A stretch of 34,065 bases of DNA from Candidatus Alloenteromonas pullicola (lineage in GTDB: Bacteria; Bacillota_I; Bacilli_A; RFN20; CAG-826), in assembly GCA_018714785.1 (NCBI GenBank), contig DVMV01000039.1, forward strand, positions 1 to 34,065, in the 5' to 3' direction. Within the stretch, counting starts at the first letter, position 1. Every line of letters starts with the position of its first letter. The position numbers and the translations under genes are program-made. The notes under the pieces are model-generated. The model was given only the letters and a program-made list of their open reading frames with translations, did no database searches and was not told the origin of the DNA. This document shows, in pieces, positions 14,436 through 26,763 of this stretch.

Positions 14436-15266
14436 ATGGAAGCGTTCCTGATTGAGCCAGGCGGCTATTGCTTCGGGGTCAAGATGGCCCTGCAGAAGGC
14501 GATGGATGCCGCGAAAGGCGGCAAAGCCTACTGTTTGGGGCGGCTTGTCCACAACGAGAAGACCTTGGAGTCGCTTTCCCGCTCGGGGGTAGTGACCATC
14601 GACGAGAGGGAGGTTGGCCTTTCCGAGGCCATCGACCATCTACCAAGCGGGTCGACCATCGTCTTCTCGGCCCACGGCCACGACCCGAAGCTCGAGGAGA
14701 AGGCAAAGGGCAAAGGGCTAATAATCGTCGACGCCACCTGCCCGTTCGTGAGGGCCAATGTGCTCGCCGCGGCGAAATCGGGCCACGTCGCCTACATCGG
14801 CTCAAAGGGCCATGCCGAAGCCGAGGCCTTTCTCGCCTCGACCAAGGTCGACGCCTTCTATGACGTAAAGTCGGGAAGGCTCGAGGCCTACGGCTCGCCT
14901 AGCCATATAATCGCCCAGACAACCCTCTCGGAGGCGGAGATAGAGGAAGGCGTCGCCAAGATAAGGGGCTCCTTCCCGGAGGCGAAGCTCATCAAGGGAA
15001 GATGCGAAGAGACCAAAACCAGGCAAGAGGCCGTCGAGCGGGCCTGCTCTAGGGCTAGGACGCTCGTGATCATCGGCTCTAGCAGCTCTTCCAACGCCAA
15101 CAAGCTCCTCCAGATTGGCCGAAGCCACGGAATCGTAAGCTACCTGGCGGAGGACGCCAAGGGAATAGAGGGCAAGAAGCTCATACCGCCGGTGGGCATA
15201 GCTTGCTCGGCCTCAAGCGACTATCGGGACTGCCTCGGCTGCCTCAATTACGTCGATTCGCTTTGA
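14436..15266 (+). CDS. ispH: 4-hydroxy-3-methylbut-2-enyl diphosphate reductase IspH (LytB)
   Basis: IspH makes IPP and DMAPP from HMBPP, the last MEP step. The 276-residue protein keeps the three iron-sulfur cysteines C12 (GGYCFGV), C102 (DATCPFV) and C190, the substrate histidines H39 (LVHN) and H80 (SAHG), and E128 in GHAE at the place of the catalytic HPE glutamate. Several usually invariant stretches have drifted: HPE is HAE, the last Cys region reads CEETKTRQ, and the C-terminal GITAGAS block reads GIACSAS. A CLGC pair sits near the end. It is somewhat shorter than the usual 280-320 residues. No Shine-Dalgarno is visible. The gene overlaps convergent trmK by 23 bp. Confidence 0.93.
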   Translation: MEAFLIEPGGYCFGVKMALQKAMDAAKGGKAYCLGRLVHNEKTLESLSRSGVVTIDEREVGLSEAIDHLPSGSTIVFSAHGHDPKLEEKAKGKGLIIVDATCPFVRANVLAAAKSGHVAYIGSKGHAEAEAFLASTKVDAFYDVKSGRLEAYGSPSHIIAQTTLSEAEIEEGVAKIRGSFPEAKLIKGRCEETKTRQEAVERACSRARTLVIIGSSSSSNANKLLQIGRSHGIVSYLAEDAKGIEGKKLIPPVGIACSASSDYRDCLGCLNYVDSL

Positions 15267-15930
15267 GCTCATCGGCCAATAGCAGATAAAGCGTCATGTA
15301 GACGCGGCGCTTTTCCTTGTCTAGCCCTTTGTTCAGGATGTCAGAAACCTTCTTGCGATTCTCCTCGAGGTATTGGAGGTAGATTTCGCCGCCCCGCTTC
15401 CTTATCACCGGGCCGAATAGCAGGTCCGCCTCGCTATAATGCGGGGCTTCGCCGGGGACGAAGCGGATTACGCTGTAGTATACCTTGTCCTCGTAGACCA
15501 GCTCCTCGTCTTGTATCCGCAGCCCAAGCTTAGCCGCCTCCGACCTTAGATACCGGAGATCGCGATGGGCATCGACGACCAGGCAATCCAGGCCCGCGAG
15601 CCTTTTCTGGCCGCGGCGCAGGATATCGATTATAAGCCTTCCGCCCATCCCGGCTATGGCCACGGCCTCGGCATCGGCCGAAAGGCGGTCAAAGCCATCC
15701 GAAAGCGAGCAATCGATCCGATACCCCATTGGGGAGGCCTCGACGTTGCGCTTCATCGTCATGAAGGGGCCCGGCTTGTTCTCAATTGCCTGGGCGTATG
15801 GCGTCTTGCCCGACTCGACAAGCTCGAGGACGAGGTGGGCGTGGTCGGCGCCGACGTCGGCGACGAACCTTCCCGATGGAAGCATGTCGTAGACGGCCTG
15901 CAGCCTCCTCGACAGTTTCTTCCTACCCAT
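15244..15930 (-). CDS. trmK: tRNA (adenine22-N1)-methyltransferase TrmK
   Basis: This 228-residue Rossmann methyltransferase shows the SAM loop VADVGADHAHL (about 23-33), an acidic AIENKPGP segment, and IAGMGGRLI (about 92-100), followed by a helical C-terminal region. This is the TrmK/YqfN pattern; the enzyme methylates A22 of tRNA. It sits downstream of rpoD as in Bacillus, here separated from it by a second sigma gene. The start overlaps the stop of that sigma gene by 8 bp. The 3' end runs 23 bp into ispH on the opposite strand. Confidence 0.93.
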   Translation of the reverse strand: MGRKKLSRRLQAVYDMLPSGRFVADVGADHAHLVLELVESGKTPYAQAIENKPGPFMTMKRNVEASPMGYRIDCSLSDGFDRLSADAEAVAIAGMGGRLIIDILRRGQKRLAGLDCLVVDAHRDLRYLRSEAAKLGLRIQDEELVYEDKVYYSVIRFVPGEAPHYSEADLLFGPVIRKRGGEIYLQYLEENRKKVSDILNKGLDKEKRRVYMTLYLLLADELKANRRN

Positions 15931-16816
15931 CGATCCCGTGATCCTCCATAAAGGCTTTGATCAGTTGGCTTGCGCGCTCATCGAGCTGGCGCACCCTTTC
16001 CCTGGATATCCCCATGTCACGGCCTACCGCGGCATATGTTTCCTTCTGGTGGCCGTAAAGGCCCCAGCAGCGGATTACTATGCTCTTCTCCCTATCGGGA
16101 AGCGAATCGATGGCTTGGCGCAGCAATTCGTCTTTTTCATCCCGGTCGATTGATTCGGATATCGATTCCCCGGAATCGGGCAGGTTATCGATCTCGGTGC
16201 GCTCGGAATCGTCGGATGAGGAGGCATCGAGGGAATCCACGCCGTAAAGCTGTTGGCGGAGCACGTTGAGCCGATCGACGTCCTCGGCGGTTATGCCCTC
16301 CCCAGATTTCTCGGCTATCTCCTCGCTGGTGGGCTCGCGCCCCAGCGAAGAAGAGAGATCGAGGTAGGCTTTGGCGACCCGGGCGAGGTCGGACTTGGTC
16401 TTTGAGTCGATCCTAATGGGCCCTATCTTGGACAACGCATCCTTTACGGCCCACTGCACCGATTGCTTGGCGAAAGGGAAAAACGGAAGGTTTTTGTCCG
16501 GATCGTAGCGCTCCGCCGCGGAAATCAGGGCGTTGTATCCTTCCTGTATGAGGTCGAGGTTGGCCTCCTTCCCGCGCAGGGATTCGGGGATGAGGTCGCT
16601 GACGACGCGCAAAACCATCTCCAGATTGGAGCTCACCAGCTCATTCCTGGCCTCGATGGCGTCTTGCCTTTCCTCCTCGCTCGCCCCTTCGCGGAGTCCG
16701 GCTTTGATACGCTTGCCGAGGGCGATCGACTGCTCGGTGGTGAGGCGGGGGTGGTTAAGCGCCTCCTGCCTCACTTGGGCGAGGGCATCGGCTAGGTTTG
16801 CTTTGTCGAAATCCAT
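15923..16816 (-). CDS. Second, divergent sigma-70 family factor downstream of rpoD
   Basis: The 297-residue protein has sigma regions 1.2, 2, 3 and 4 but no region 1.1. Region 2 runs from LVSSNLEMVLRVV (60-72) through LDLIQEGYNALISAAERYD (87-105) to PFFPFAKQSVQWAVKDAL (111-128). Region 4.2 (YAAVGRDMGISRERVRQLDERA, about 261-282) keeps the RER-RQ residues that read the -35 box. In region 2.3/2.4 the residues equivalent to E. coli sigma70 Y430, W433, W434, Q437 and T440 are F, Q, S, W and K, so DNA melting and -10 recognition should differ from RpoD. It follows rpoD by 21 bp with its own AAGGAGGG site and overlaps trmK. It is an alternative factor of unknown regulon, not an ECF factor. Confidence 0.9.
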   Translation of the reverse strand: MDFDKANLADALAQVRQEALNHPRLTTEQSIALGKRIKAGLREGASEEERQDAIEARNELVSSNLEMVLRVVSDLIPESLRGKEANLDLIQEGYNALISAAERYDPDKNLPFFPFAKQSVQWAVKDALSKIGPIRIDSKTKSDLARVAKAYLDLSSSLGREPTSEEIAEKSGEGITAEDVDRLNVLRQQLYGVDSLDASSSDDSERTEIDNLPDSGESISESIDRDEKDELLRQAIDSLPDREKSIVIRCWGLYGHQKETYAAVGRDMGISRERVRQLDERASQLIKAFMEDHGIDG

Positions 16817-16837
16817 GGGGCCCTCCTTGCCTATTGC

Positions 16838-18136
16838 TTATCGCCCGTCCTTCTTGCTTGGCTCGTTGAAGATGGCGTCTTGGTAATCGCCGAGCTTCTT
16901 CGCTCTGATCGGGTGGCGAAGCTGTTTGATGGCCTTCACCTCGATCTGACGGATGCGCTCGCGGGTCAGGTTGAAAACCTTCCCGACCTCCTCCAAGGTT
17001 CTCGGGCGGTTATCGTCGAGCCCATAGCGGAGGCGGAGTACCATCTGGTCGCGCGGCTTGAGGTCGCGCATGATCTCGTAAAGCTCGTCCTTGAGCAGCG
17101 ACTTGGTCGTGTACTCCTGCGGGCTCTCGTCGTCTTTGTCCTCGACGAAGTCGCCGAGTCGGGAATCTTCCTCCTCGCCAATCGGGGTCTCCAGGGAAAC
17201 CGGCTCGATGGCAATGCGCTGGATCTCGCGGATCTTCTCAGGGCTGAGCGCCCCATCCATCTTCTCCGAGATTTCCTCGGGGGTTGGATCGCGGCCCAGC
17301 TCTTGCACTAGCTGACGCTGATAACGGGTCATCTTGTTGATGGTCTCGACCATGTGGACCGGGATGCGGATGGTCCTGGCCTGATCGGCGATGGCGCGCG
17401 TTATGGCCTGCCGGATCCACCAAGTGGCATAGGTTGAGAACTTGAATCCTTTGGTGTAGTCGAATTTATCGACGGCCTTCATAAGCCCGATGTTGCCTTC
17501 CTGAATGAGGTCGAGGAACTGCATGCCGCGGCCGACGTAGTGCTTGGCGATGGCGACGACCAAGCGAAGGTTGGCGGTGGTCAGCTGATCCTTGGCTTCT
17601 TTGGCGTCCATCTTCTCCCAGTCGGTGGCATCCTCGCGCTTTCCGGCCTCGATGCGCTTGGCGAGCTCCTTCTCCTGTTGCTCATTGAGCAGTCCGACCT
17701 TGCCGATCTCCTTGAGATATAGCTTGACCGAATCGGTGATCTTGACGTCGGAGTTGCCAATCGCGGTTAGGTCGGCGGAGGCGAGCTCTTCCTTGCCCTC
17801 GTCGGAAAGGTCGCCGGCATCGTCGTCGGGGTCGAGATCCGGATCGGCGTTCATCATGTCGGCGTCGGGGCCCTCGATGTCCTCTAGGTCCTCGTCCTCG
17901 TCGGACTCGACGGTTATGCCGGCGTCCTTGAAGTATTGGATGAGGTCATCTAGGTCTTTCTCGGAAAGATCGAGGTGCTGCACGGCATCCATGACGTCGG
18001 CCGCGTTGATGCTGCCCTCTTTCTTGCCTTCGCTCAAAAACTGCTTCTTTATCGATTCAAGCGAGGCGACGGCTTCTACGTCGAAATCCTCGTCCATGCT
18101 ATCGATGGTTTCTTTTTCCTTCTTCTTGCTTGCCAT
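16838..18136 (-). CDS. rpoD: Housekeeping RNA polymerase sigma factor RpoD (SigA)
   Basis: The 432-residue product is the primary sigma factor. It has a short region 1.1 (about 22-76), an acidic linker (77-120), region 1.2 ([11 protein letters not shown]), region 2 with [12 protein letters not shown] and the melting helix [17 protein letters not shown] (233-249), region 3, and region 4.2 [19 protein letters not shown]. The frame is open to 18250, but the ATG at 18136 follows a good AAGGGAAG site and begins MASKKKEKE as expected for the family; the longer frame would overlap dnaG. It lies downstream of dnaG, the classic macromolecular-synthesis arrangement. Confidence 0.96.
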
Positions 18137-18203
18137 ATTTGCTTCCCTTTCTTCTAGAAATGTTCGGATGGTGTCATCGGATGGCCTTCGCAGCGGCCAA
18201 TGC

Positions 18204-20012
18204 CTACTTCTTCCTGCTTTTCTGGAGCTGCCTCCTCTTGAATTCGACAAGTTCGGATAGCCCGGCGACCTGTTCTTGCCTGGATGGCCTCTTCAGGGCA
18301 TCCTTAGCCGTTTTCTCGGCCCGGGCTTTCTCCCGTTCCTCGCCTATGGCCTCGATGCATTCGTCGACCGGCGGGATCGAATCGACCTCGCGCTTCTCCT
18401 TCATGAATATCGAGGAGACGGTGCCGTTGAGGACATCGGCGTCTTCGGGATTTCCCAGCTCTATCTGGGCCATAAGCGAGGCGACGTCTATCGCCTCCTG
18501 AGCTGGATTATCGTAGCGGTAATCGAGCACAGCCGTGGCAATCCGCTGGCAATGGTCGTCGAGGAACGTCTGAACCTCCTGCTCGAAGCGCTCGCTCGCT
18601 TGCTTGCTCTCCACCATATGGTAGAGCATGCCTTGCTCTGCCCTCACAAGCCGCCTGATCCTGGCGGGCCGGCCTTTAAGTCCGGGGCGCTTGGTCAGGA
18701 TTGTCTCCTCCTGAGTCAGGTTGGCCGATTGGGAGCCGACCATCTCTCGGATTGCGCTGGGATCGAAGCCGGTGGCTTTGGCGAGGCGGACGATGTAGTC
18801 CTCGCGCTCTATGCCGGGCGGCAGCTCGCGGATGTATGGGATTATCTGATTCGCGAGCTTGCTGCGCTGCTCGGTGCTGTCGAGGTGATGGGTGTTCGTG
18901 TAATATCCGAGCTCGAATTGCAGCGGATCGACCAGGACCGACATCTTCTGCTTAACCGCCTCGGCGCCTTCCTCTTGGAAGACGTCATCCGGGTCGCGCA
19001 AATCGCCTTGATAGTCTACTAATCGGAACGGAACGTTAGATTTCCTGAGGAGCCTAGCGCATTTCATCATGGCCGTCTGCCCCGGGGCGTCGCCATCAAG
19101 GCAAAGCCTTACCTCTGACTTAAGCCTCGATAGCATGTTGATGTGGTCCGGCGTCAGCGATGTCCCCATCAGGGCTACGGCGGATTCGATGCCGGATCGG
19201 TTAAGGGCTATGACATCCATAAACCCCTCGAGAACGTAGACGTATCCGTCCCTTCTGGCCGCCTGGGCTGCGTCGGAATAGTTGTAAAGCACGCGGGATT
19301 TCTGGAATATCCTCGTTTCGGGCGAGTTGATGTACTTCGAGGAGGGATCGTCGTCTTTTATCTTCCTTGCGGAGAAGCCGACGACCTGCCCATCGGAGTT
19401 AAGCAGCGGGAAAATCACGCGGCCAGCGTTGCGATCGCGCATAGTTTGGCTGCTTTCGTCAGCGATGCCTATTCCTTCGATGGAATGGGCAGAATGGCCT
19501 TTCCCCTTGAGGAACTCGATGGTCTTCTCCCCGTCGGATGGCGAATAGCCGATGCGGTATCTCTTAATCGAGATGTCGTCGATGCCCCTGGCGGCGAGGT
19601 AGTCCTTGCCGGCCTTCCCCTCCGGGGTGTTGAGCATGTATGAATAGAAAGACTGGAGGTCGTCTATGCAATCGTATAGCCGCTTGACCTCCTCGGGTAT
19701 CTTCCGCACATAGGTTTGCTCGGAAAGCCGGGGATCGGAATATCCGATGAGCTGGGCGAGTTTCCGTACGGCGGCCTCGAACGGTATCTTCTCGTACTTC
19801 TCTATGAACCCGATGGCGTTTCCGCCGGTCCCACAGACAAAGCATTTGAATATCTGCCGTTCTGGCGAGATGGAAAGGGAAGGGTTGGAGTCGTCATGAA
19901 AAGGGCAGAGGGCGACGTAGTTCCTGCCTTTCTTCTCAACCTTGAGGTAGGAGGAAATAACGGACACGATGTCGGCTTTGCTAAGGATGTCTTCTACAAG
20001 CTTAGGGTCCAT
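18204..20012 (-). CDS. dnaG: DNA primase DnaG
   Basis: This 602-residue primase makes RNA primers for replication. The CHC2 zinc finger is C36, H39, C57 and C60 ([12 protein letters not shown] ... [10 protein letters not shown]). The catalytic TOPRIM core has EGFMD (262-266) and DGD (306-308) within CLDGDAPGQ. The C-terminal part, about 430-602, is helical, as in helicase-binding domains, and ends in a basic tail. An excellent AAAGGAGGG ribosome site precedes the ATG. The leader between glyQS and dnaG contains a 17-nt palindrome and an AT-rich repeat. rpoD follows after 67 bp. Confidence 0.96.
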
Positions 20013-24069: not shown

Positions 24070-25278
24070 TCACCCTCTGCGCATGAAATGGAAGGCAAAA
24101 TACCCCTCCTCGCGCCGCTTAGTCGACATCTTGGAGAAGGAATCGCGGAGTTTGTCGGCAATCGAGTAGATTAGCATCAGCGAAAGGCTTGAGAAAACGA
24201 ACCTTTCGGCGCTTGGCTGGCTCATAAGCAGGCAAAGGCACCCAATGCAGACCGACAAAACGTATCCAAACGCGCTTTCCGCCAAAAGGGCGGATGAGAA
24301 TCTGGCCGAGCCGTTGCGGAGTCCGGATATCGCTTCCGTTCTCCGTCGAAGGCTATCCGAGGAGAGAAAATCGTTTTCGAGGCCGCCGACCTCGCGCTTG
24401 AGCGCCTCCATCCGCGGCGAAACAAAGATCCACTTCAGGCAAAGCGCAAGCAGCATGATGGCGATCCCAAGCCCCAGCGTCGGGTCGCCGAAGCTGAGGA
24501 AGAATGAGGAAGCCGCCAGCTCCAGGCACGACGATATGGCCATCGGCATCCCGGAGAAGGCGGCCGCTTTATATGAATGGTACCTCGCAAACAGTTCCTT
24601 CCTGCGAGACGGAACCGAGGAGTCGACCCCATCCATATAGGAGATGTCGAAGCGCCTCATCGCCCGCGATATATGCCATTTCCCGAACAGCGATGAAGCA
24701 AGCGACAGCAGGAAAAGCGACAATGCCGCCAAGCCTAGCCGGCCGGCGAAGGAAAGCAAAAGCAAACCGGCAAGCAACAGCATTGGCGGCAACGCGCTGA
24801 GCGCCGTCGCGGCGATTTCGGCCAGGACTCCGATTGGACGCGGCTTCTCGGCTTTCGGGGCTACATCCTCGTAAGCTTCGATGAGGAGAACCGTTCCCTC
24901 CATGGCGGAAGAGAACTCCTCCTGGCTCGCCGTTCTCCTTCCCGAGCTTGGATCGAGGAACCCGACCCTGCCGCGGGAGGCGGAGACGACGTAAACCGCA
25001 TGCAATCTCCCCGAGTCACGCAATACGCAGATGAAGGGGAAAACCGACTTTGAGGTGAGGACTTCCCTTGGATCGCGGGCCTTGTAGGCGCCTAGCTTCA
25101 TTCCCATCAAAGAGGCATAGCGGACGAGATCCGCGATCGAAGGGGCCTGACCAGAACCGATATCGGGTTCCTTGGCGTAGGCGAAGTCCTTTCGCCCCGA
25201 TGCATGCATCAGCGCCATCTTGACCGCTGCGTAGCCGCATCCTTTCTCCTGTGCCTGATATACGATTCTTGCCCTCAC
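24070..25278 (-). CDS. C39-type cysteine peptidase fused to a six-span membrane domain, no ATPase domain
   Basis: Residues 1-135 look like a C39 bacteriocin-processing peptidase: Q8 and C14 in YQAQEKGCGYAA match the oxyanion Gln and nucleophile Cys, H93 in RLHAVYVV the catalytic His, and D109 in FLDPSSG the Asp. Residues 150-376 contain about six hydrophobic helices (near 150-177, 180-200, 240-265, 268-288, 330-353, 359-376), like the membrane domain of PCAT-type ABC exporters. The protein ends at residue 402 with no Walker A or signature motif, and no ATPase gene is adjacent. It starts at a GTG with no clear ribosome site. It could process and release a leader peptide without ATP, or use an ATPase encoded elsewhere. 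No cognate peptide gene was recognised nearby. Confidence 0.75.
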   Translation of the reverse strand: MRARIVYQAQEKGCGYAAVKMALMHASGRKDFAYAKEPDIGSGQAPSIADLVRYASLMGMKLGAYKARDPREVLTSKSVFPFICVLRDSGRLHAVYVVSASRGRVGFLDPSSGRRTASQEEFSSAMEGTVLLIEAYEDVAPKAEKPRPIGVLAEIAATALSALPPMLLLAGLLLLSFAGRLGLAALSLFLLSLASSLFGKWHISRAMRRFDISYMDGVDSSVPSRRKELFARYHSYKAAAFSGMPMAISSCLELAASSFFLSFGDPTLGLGIAIMLLALCLKWIFVSPRMEALKREVGGLENDFLSSDSLRRRTEAISGLRNGSARFSSALLAESAFGYVLSVCIGCLCLLMSQPSAERFVFSSLSLMLIYSIADKLRDSFSKMSTKRREEGYFAFHFMRRG

Positions 25279-25603: not shown

Positions 25604-26098
25604 TCATTTATCCGAATATGCCCTCTTGGCTTGCCTAAGGGCCTCAAGGCACTTCTTCTTGGCGTAGGATTCGCTTAGCCCCAGCGCCTCGCCGACCTCT
25701 TTGTACTTAAGCCCGAAGCCGATGCGGAGGGATATCATGGCCTTCTGCTCGGGGCTAAGGCTATTCGGCAGCAGGTAATCGAGCCTTTTGGGGTCGAAGG
25801 AGGGGATCAGGTCCGCCTCTAGCCCAAGCTGCTCGCGCTTCTTCCTAAGCGCGTCGAGGCAGCGGCTGCGGGCTAGCCTCACGATATATGAATGCAGCGC
25901 CTTGGCCGACTCTATCCGGCCCCGGTTAGCCCAAAGGCAGGCGAAGCAGTCCTGGAACGCATCCTCGGCATCTTCCCTCTCCCCCATGTACCCAAGGCAG
26001 ATGTAGAAGACCAGCCGGCGATAGGCGAAATAAACCTCCTCGAAGGCTTTCTCGTCTCCGTCGACCATGCGCCGCGCCACCTCGATTGATACGTTCAT
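25604..26098 (-). CDS. ECF-type RNA polymerase sigma factor
   Basis: The 164-residue product is a two-domain ECF sigma factor. Region 2 spans about 18-86 (FEEVYFAYRRLVFYI, then REDAEDAFQDCFACLW and LHSYIVRLARSRCLDALRK). Region 4 spans about 112-160 with the helix-turn-helix YKEVGEALGLSESYAKKKCLEALR. The frame is open upstream to 26215, but homology starts at MNVSIEVARRMVDGDEKAF, and the ATG at 26098 overlaps the preceding gene's stop by 4 bp (ATGA). The partner upstream is a single-span membrane protein, a likely anti-sigma factor. The regulon and signal are unknown. Confidence 0.92.
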   Translation of the reverse strand: MNVSIEVARRMVDGDEKAFEEVYFAYRRLVFYICLGYMGEREDAEDAFQDCFACLWANRGRIESAKALHSYIVRLARSRCLDALRKKREQLGLEADLIPSFDPKRLDYLLPNSLSPEQKAMISLRIGFGLKYKEVGEALGLSESYAKKKCLEALRQAKRAYSDK

Positions 26099-26763
26099 GC
26101 CTGGCCTTTCAGCGCCTCTAGGGCGAGATATGCGGCTTCCTCGGCGCCTATCCCGTTGACCACGGCCAGCATCAGTCGGATGCCATCGTGGTCTAGGCGT
26201 AGGACGCATTGCCACTCATCCACCACCTCCACGTAGGCCGCGCTTAGGTCGGAAAGCGTCTCCCTGGCGCAGAGGAAGTCGATCGAGATCCCCTCGTAGG
26301 AGAAAAACTCCAGCCGATCGTATCCCATCTCGGTGAGAACCCAATACCCATCCCAGATGGAGGAGGCGTCGAAAAGATAGAAGCAATCCGCCAAGGACTC
26401 CGGCTGCGCGTCTAGCCCAGCCGAGGCGTCGTAGGAAAGCGGGCGCTGATCCAGGAAGGACAATAGCTCGTCGTAGCTTTCAAAATCAAACGTCGGCCCC
26501 GGATCGCCGGGAAGCGGGCCTTCCGTTTGCCCCGACCCGCCCGCGGGCTCCGTGGTTTGCGGCGAAGACGGCCCGCCTCGCCCTATAAAGGCCAAAGGCA
26601 GGCAAAGCGCCAATGGGATCAGCACCCCAAGCGAGGCCAAAGCCGCTATGGCCAGCCGAGGCGGTCGGCGATGGGCGGGCTTTGAAAAGGGGGCTGGCGG
26701 AAGCAATTCGTCCACCGCCCCCAGAAGCTCATCCCTGAATTTCCCTTTGCTGAACCTTCTCAT
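26095..26763 (-). CDS. Single-span membrane protein, putative anti-sigma factor
   Basis: I do not recognise a named family. The 222-residue protein has a short basic cytoplasmic part (1-36), one hydrophobic helix (about 38-60), a Pro/Gly/Ser-rich linker (62-90) and an acidic outer domain of about 130 residues containing YDELLSFLD and MGYDRLEFFSYEG. Location and topology suggest the membrane anti-sigma factor of the overlapping ECF gene, but the cytoplasmic part is short and lacks a zinc anti-sigma motif. The gene comes before its sigma gene, the reverse of the usual order. No Shine-Dalgarno is seen. It could instead be a surface sensor or lipid-facing protein. Confidence 0.65.
   Translation of the reverse strand: MRRFSKGKFRDELLGAVDELLPPAPFSKPAHRRPPRLAIAALASLGVLIPLALCLPLAFIGRGGPSSPQTTEPAGGSGQTEGPLPGDPGPTFDFESYDELLSFLDQRPLSYDASAGLDAQPESLADCFYLFDASSIWDGYWVLTEMGYDRLEFFSYEGISIDFLCARETLSDLSAAYVEVVDEWQCVLRLDHDGIRLMLAVVNGIGAEEAAYLALEALKGQA

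Follow-up and report, generated by a model that had tools for sequence, protein, structure and literature searches.

A fast-diverging second sigma factor behind rpoD in an uncultured Bacilli lineage and recurring rpoD-like copies across its order

What does a second sigma factor do when its gene directly follows that of the housekeeping factor RpoD? This question is raised by a stretch of 34,065 nucleotides (hereafter the window) from the genome of an uncultured Bacilli lineage (G000; 1.05 Mb in 41 contigs, 86% complete), in which an open reading frame for a sigma-70 factor that we call SigX lies behind rpoD.

The rpoD-sigX locus

The genes dnaG, rpoD, sigX and trmK follow each other in this order within the window, tightly packed and all on the reverse strand (Table 1). 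A sequence-only reading of this DNA had proposed a second sigma factor without region 1.1 in the same operon as rpoD; the first point holds and the second is very probable: Pfam sigma-70 regions 2, 3 and 4 all match SigX above their gathering cut-offs, while regions 1.1 and 1.2 are matched in RpoD but neither of them in SigX (where residues of about 8 to 41 line up with region 1.2 by eye), and the gene is placed for co-transcription. With its start 21 nt past rpoD, its AAGGAGG motif and its 8-nt overlap with trmK, sigX is very likely transcribed as part of the rpoD message. The true start of rpoD itself probably lies downstream of the listed TTG codon.

Table 1. Features of the rpoD-sigX locus (positions in the window)
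Feature	Position	Strand	Basis
trmK, tRNA (adenine-22) methyltransferase, overlaps the end of sigX	15244..15930	-	PF04816
sigX, second sigma-70 factor, 297 aa	15923..16816	-	ORF; Pfam regions 2, 3 and 4; purifying selection in relatives
SigX region 4.2, -35-reading helix SRERVRQ, residues 271-277	15986..16006	-	alignment
SigX sigma region 2, residues 60-130	16427..16639	-	PF04542 match
SigX region 2.3-2.4 stretch FFPFAKQSVQWAVKD, residues 112-126	16439..16483	-	alignment; corresponds to E. coli F427-R441
sigX ribosome-binding site AAGGAGG	16822..16828	-	seen directly in the sequence
rpoD, primary sigma factor	16838..18250	-	Pfam regions 1.1 to 4; NCBIfam RpoD_Cterm above cut-off
dnaG, primase, first gene upstream of rpoD	18204..20012	-	TIGR01391 above cut-off

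Apart from dnaG, rpoD and trmK, the neighbours of sigX are ispH, a DEAD-box helicase gene and an endonuclease IV-like gene, and no anti-sigma-like gene is present in the adjoining gene block. Besides rpoD and sigX, the genome carries three more sigma genes. One of them lies inside the window and is of ECF type (25604-26215, reverse strand; region 2 above cut-off, with Bacteroidetes-type ECF models as the closest in NCBIfam, below cut-off); it adjoins a gene for a 402-aa protein with a C39 peptidase domain (24070-25278, reverse strand). The two further small sigma genes are found on contigs C14 and C18.

Promoter-contact residues and family placement of SigX

SigX clearly belongs to the sigma-70 family, with PF04542, PF04545 and the NCBIfam superfamily model TIGR02937 all above cut-off and sigma factors in the PDB matching it far beyond chance (9e-27). 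Numbered after E. coli RpoD by alignment, the positions Y430, W433, W434, Q437 and T440 are occupied by F, Q, S, W and K, just as the sequence-only reading had listed them, and its SRERVRQ helix is likewise borne out, with the -35 readers at 584, 585, 588 and 589 (R, E, R and Q) unchanged. The stretch FFPFAKQSVQWAVKD carries the replaced wedge and -12 readers, and R441 is additionally changed to D, H455 to K and E458 to S. In contrast, N383, L402, D403, Q406, E407 and F427 are unchanged and F419 is a tyrosine. SigX has thus altered its melting wedge, its -12 readers and the reader of the extended -10, whereas the residues known to serve core binding and the -35 helix suggest that both are intact, and the pocket for A(-11) (Y419, F427 and F430) looks largely kept together with N383. 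Replacement of the residues for flipping and holding the -10 bases, as proposed earlier, therefore stands for the wedge and the -12 readers but not for the A(-11) pocket.

That altered melting residues would be odd in themselves did not survive comparison with other sigma factors. In the same alignment, the equivalents of W433-W434 are Q-R in FliA, H-W in RpoH and P-M or R/K-C in the sporulation sigmas of the order. Group 3 sigmas also lack the W433-W434 pair, yet they open promoters (PMC6411747, PMC10216364), and natural non-WW wedges are functional in sigma 32 and sigma 28, with Q-R being the weakest of those tested in sigma 32 (PMC10216364). The replaced wedge is a sign of an alternative sigma factor and, taken alone, no sign of a new mechanism.

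Within the established groups, SigX is set apart from group 1 (RpoD) by the lack of region 1.1 and the replacement of all five residues named above, with a score far below the cut-off of the NCBIfam RpoD model, and from group 2 by Q, S, W and K where RpoD-type W433, W434 and -12 readers are expected. Regions 2 to 4, no region 1.1 and non-conserved melting residues agree with group 3, though the region 1.2-like stretch seen by alignment is a feature that strict definitions of this group bar. SigX also stays below the cut-offs of the named group 3 models in NCBIfam (SigBFG, 79 of 234 bits; FliA/WhiG, 89 of 190; RpoH, 73 of 323; spore_sigF, 60 of 321). The sporulation sigmas of the order form their own clade (99/90) and SigX is placed elsewhere in the tree, so the phylogenetic check proposed earlier comes out in favour of a factor distinct from them. 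An AlphaFold2 model built with 17 aligned relatives (mean pLDDT 81, pTM 0.45) has confident helices in sigma 2, 3 and 4, while residues 192-222 form a disordered linker. Among solved structures it comes nearest to the sigma S and sigma A chains of initiation complexes; global TM-scores stay low (about 0.38) since the model leaves the relative placement of the domains undefined.

Among known systems, group 2 sigmas such as E. coli RpoS (the nearest solved sequence and fold) and mycobacterial SigB resemble SigX as extra relatives of the primary sigma that lack region 1.1 and keep the -35 helix. However, they retain W433, W434, Q437 and a TATAAT-type -10, while SigX lacks these three residues and probably prefers an altered -10, lies within the rpoD operon and is just 26-32% identical to known group 2 members. 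Group 3 sigmas (FliA, RpoH and the sporulation factors SigF/G/E/K) share the replaced wedge and -12 readers, and FliA even has the same Q at 433, but they differ from SigX in its RpoD-type -35 helix, its position outside the sporulation clade and its scores below every group 3 cut-off.

Relatives of SigX and recurring rpoD-like copies

Among the 27 genomes of the genus that could be read at this locus, 14 have an intact second sigma gene behind rpoD and one (G012) has a copy interrupted by a stop, while in the other 12 rpoD is followed by trmK within 85 nt. The second sigma is consequently not essential to the lineage, and the tandem pair, whose conservation the sequence-only reading had wanted surveyed, is consistent within the window's own clade (intact in 5/5 genomes: G000, G009, G010, G014 and G028) but not universal in the genus. 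These five are joined at 97/97 in the tree, with G011, G025 and G029 added at 96/83. The sister copies are 32-38% identical to SigX of the window and carry A/Y at 433, W at 434, A/S/T at 437 and K at 440; the full F/Q/S/W/K set is therefore private to the window's species, with K440 as the only one of the five sites common to the clade. On its tip branch SigX has accumulated 1.82 changes per site compared to 0.018 for RpoD of the same genome, and its function may have shifted along this very long branch.

Despite this divergence, sigX is kept by purifying selection in the sister species G009, G010 and G028, whose three pairs give dN/dS ratios of 0.056, 0.121 and 0.108 (Nei-Gojobori); ratios of wider pairs (0.4 and more) were not used because dS is near saturation. 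Similar values were obtained for DnaG (0.072-0.118) and TrmK (0.076-0.112) and lower ones for RpoD (0.044-0.051). A short form of 209-226 aa, which lacks region 3 and has altered -35 readers, is encoded behind rpoD in G024, G030 and G020 (L067 37-717, L068 7485-8165 and L070 4592-5221); it too is kept by selection, with a dN/dS of 0.070 between G024 and G030.

Looking further afield, at 136 genomes from the order and 20 fetched loci, we found additional rpoD-like copies following rpoD in a number of genera and families, and sometimes directly past trmK instead (G122, family f5). The starred branches of the larger tree force at least 5 changes of the label "extra copy" (gains or losses), and a gene-block tree covering 39 genomes calls for no fewer than 6 switches between having and lacking a copy. 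For the recent cases in this larger tree (G122, G039 and G032/G124), repeated duplication is firm. A single origin of all copies was not rejected on an initial set of 19 (p-AU 0.10) but is contradicted by these recent duplications. For the eight-member SigX group itself, AU tests reject a position inside the Bacilli RpoDs (p 0.015) or inside the RpoDs of the same genus (p 0.0105), though both involve long branches that weaken them, and this group is also compatible with an ancient duplicate that part of the lineages retained and the rest lost. A phage origin was considered and dropped, with matches that are weak at 26-32% identity.

The extra copies span the range from near-RpoD to group-3-like. 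Copies of G102, G108, G109 and G131 have the full RpoD residue set, W433 is the sole tryptophan lost in those of G124, G025, G011, G014, G009, G057 and G070, and both tryptophans are lost in those of G000, G111, G052 and G073; G029_X, a member of the SigX group, still has W433, W434 and Q437. We compared 27 copies at 116 sites that are invariant in RpoD with random sets of these sites and found the -35 readers retained at 0.85 against a mean of 0.57, which random sets reach in just 1.9% of cases. Single sites differ widely (W433 0.30, T440 0.19, E458 0.30 and the whole of region 3.0 0.34, but F427 0.96, N383 0.93 and D403 0.96). Across the 27 copies, special retention is thus evident for the -35 readers. 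No special loss is evident for the -10 readers: their five sites taken together stand at 0.46, and random sets fall as low in 19% of cases.

In a few loci the arrangement of the pair is different. G124 (L310 1215-4055) and G032 (L042 1-2490), which belong to one genus, have it in reversed order, with the divergent copy first behind dnaG and the RpoD-like one second, and in G104 (L307 1217-3919) a divergent sigma with W434 changed to R adjoins dnaG and is followed by an RpoD-like gene. The same slot is occupied in another class, as a Clostridia metagenome-assembled genome from horse faeces has two similar tandem rpoD-like genes between dnaG and trmK (L113 4717-6777). Multiple primary-like sigmas are known as rpoD paralogue families in Streptomyces (HrdA-D), cyanobacteria and Burkholderia. 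Unlike these, the copies of the order lie in tandem behind rpoD, have arisen repeatedly and represent all stages of -10-reader loss, and the literature that we searched, which covers the field in part, contains no description of tandem rpoD copies.

We tentatively propose that the rpoD operon of this order repeatedly spawns new sigma factors that keep core and -35 binding, may lose, step by step, W433 along with the -12 readers and recognition of the extended -10, and would end in a group-3-like state with a fast-changing -10 specificity under purifying selection. If true, living species display how alternative sigmas evolve from a housekeeping factor. The origin of new promoter preferences from an essential housekeeping sigma has so far been inferred mostly from ancient families, and the presence of near-RpoD, half-changed and fully changed copies in one slot of related species makes the order of changes testable. 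W433 and T440 are mostly lost while the pocket for A(-11) is kept along with the -35 helix, and in vitro work on a few proteins could show how these changes bear on promoter choice.

Possible functions of SigX

On balance we favour, with some reserve, SigX as an active alternative sigma factor that is made together with RpoD and combines an RpoD-type -35 preference with an altered -10. As one of the recurring extra rpoD-like copies of the order, diverging fast under purifying selection, it would derive from an rpoD-like gene and be co-produced with RpoD from a dnaG-rpoD-sigX-trmK operon. Region 2.2, where D403, Q406 and E407 are kept, probably provides its contact to core RNA polymerase, and region 4.2 probably reads RpoD-like -35 boxes. 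Flipped A(-11) is likely still captured, while the wedge and the -12 readers would be different ones and extended -10 reading would be lost. It would then serve promoters that combine a good -35 with a -10 unlike TATAAT, at which it may act alongside or in competition with RpoD.

The sequence-only reading had likewise expected shared -35 boxes and a different -10. The -35 half is well matched by the kept readers and from the residues it is reasonable to expect a -10 of its own, but no second -10 emerged from the approximately 0.99 Mb searched in the genome of the window. In this search, -35-anchored words were counted in G000 (0.99 Mb), G004 (0.33 Mb, without a second sigma) and G028 (0.40 Mb), giving 30 near-TATAAT words behind near-TTGACA in G000 against 4 expected and no -10 class besides the RpoD type in any of the three, at a power that is low because gene calls were crude and even G004 yielded little RpoD signal. 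A dyad scan returned mixed words without a clear motif.

This outcome would also suit a brake that occupies core polymerase and -35 boxes yet melts DNA weakly or fails to melt it, competing with RpoD and thereby tuning or buffering housekeeping transcription. Such a role is consistent with kept core and -35 readers next to the loss of both wedge tryptophans, with the weakness of Q-R among the sigma 32 wedges (PMC10216364) and with expression from the rpoD operon, as suggested by the gene spacing. We nevertheless consider it rather unlikely, since a pure brake would have no need of the kept F427, F430, Y419 and N383 and group 3 sigmas without the WW pair are active (PMC6411747). A weak wedge is also predicted to require help, as expected if SigX, though made with RpoD, were a stress- or activator-dependent sigma under post-translational control by an anti-sigma, proteolysis or a partner. 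Control of this kind is common among alternative sigmas. No anti-sigma-like gene adjoins sigX, however, and although one may be encoded elsewhere, we regard a regulated factor as improbable.

The two remaining explanations concern where SigX comes from and whether it works at all. An acquired group 3 sigma inserted into the operon, rather than a copy of rpoD, would account for the rejected nesting among Bacilli RpoDs, but beyond the long branches in this test it has to contend with phage matches of such low identity, with the retention of W433, W434 and Q437 in G029_X of the same group and with rpoD duplications in or beside the same slot elsewhere in the order, which make it highly improbable. 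A decaying, functionless duplicate, for which the sequence-only reading had named frequent loss or decay in relatives as the telltale sign, could draw on the very fast divergence, the broken copy of G012 and the 12 species without one. Yet reading frames are intact in all five species of the clade, the -35 readers are retained and dN/dS is 0.06-0.12 in close relatives, which refutes decay for the sister species and leaves it hardly credible for SigX.
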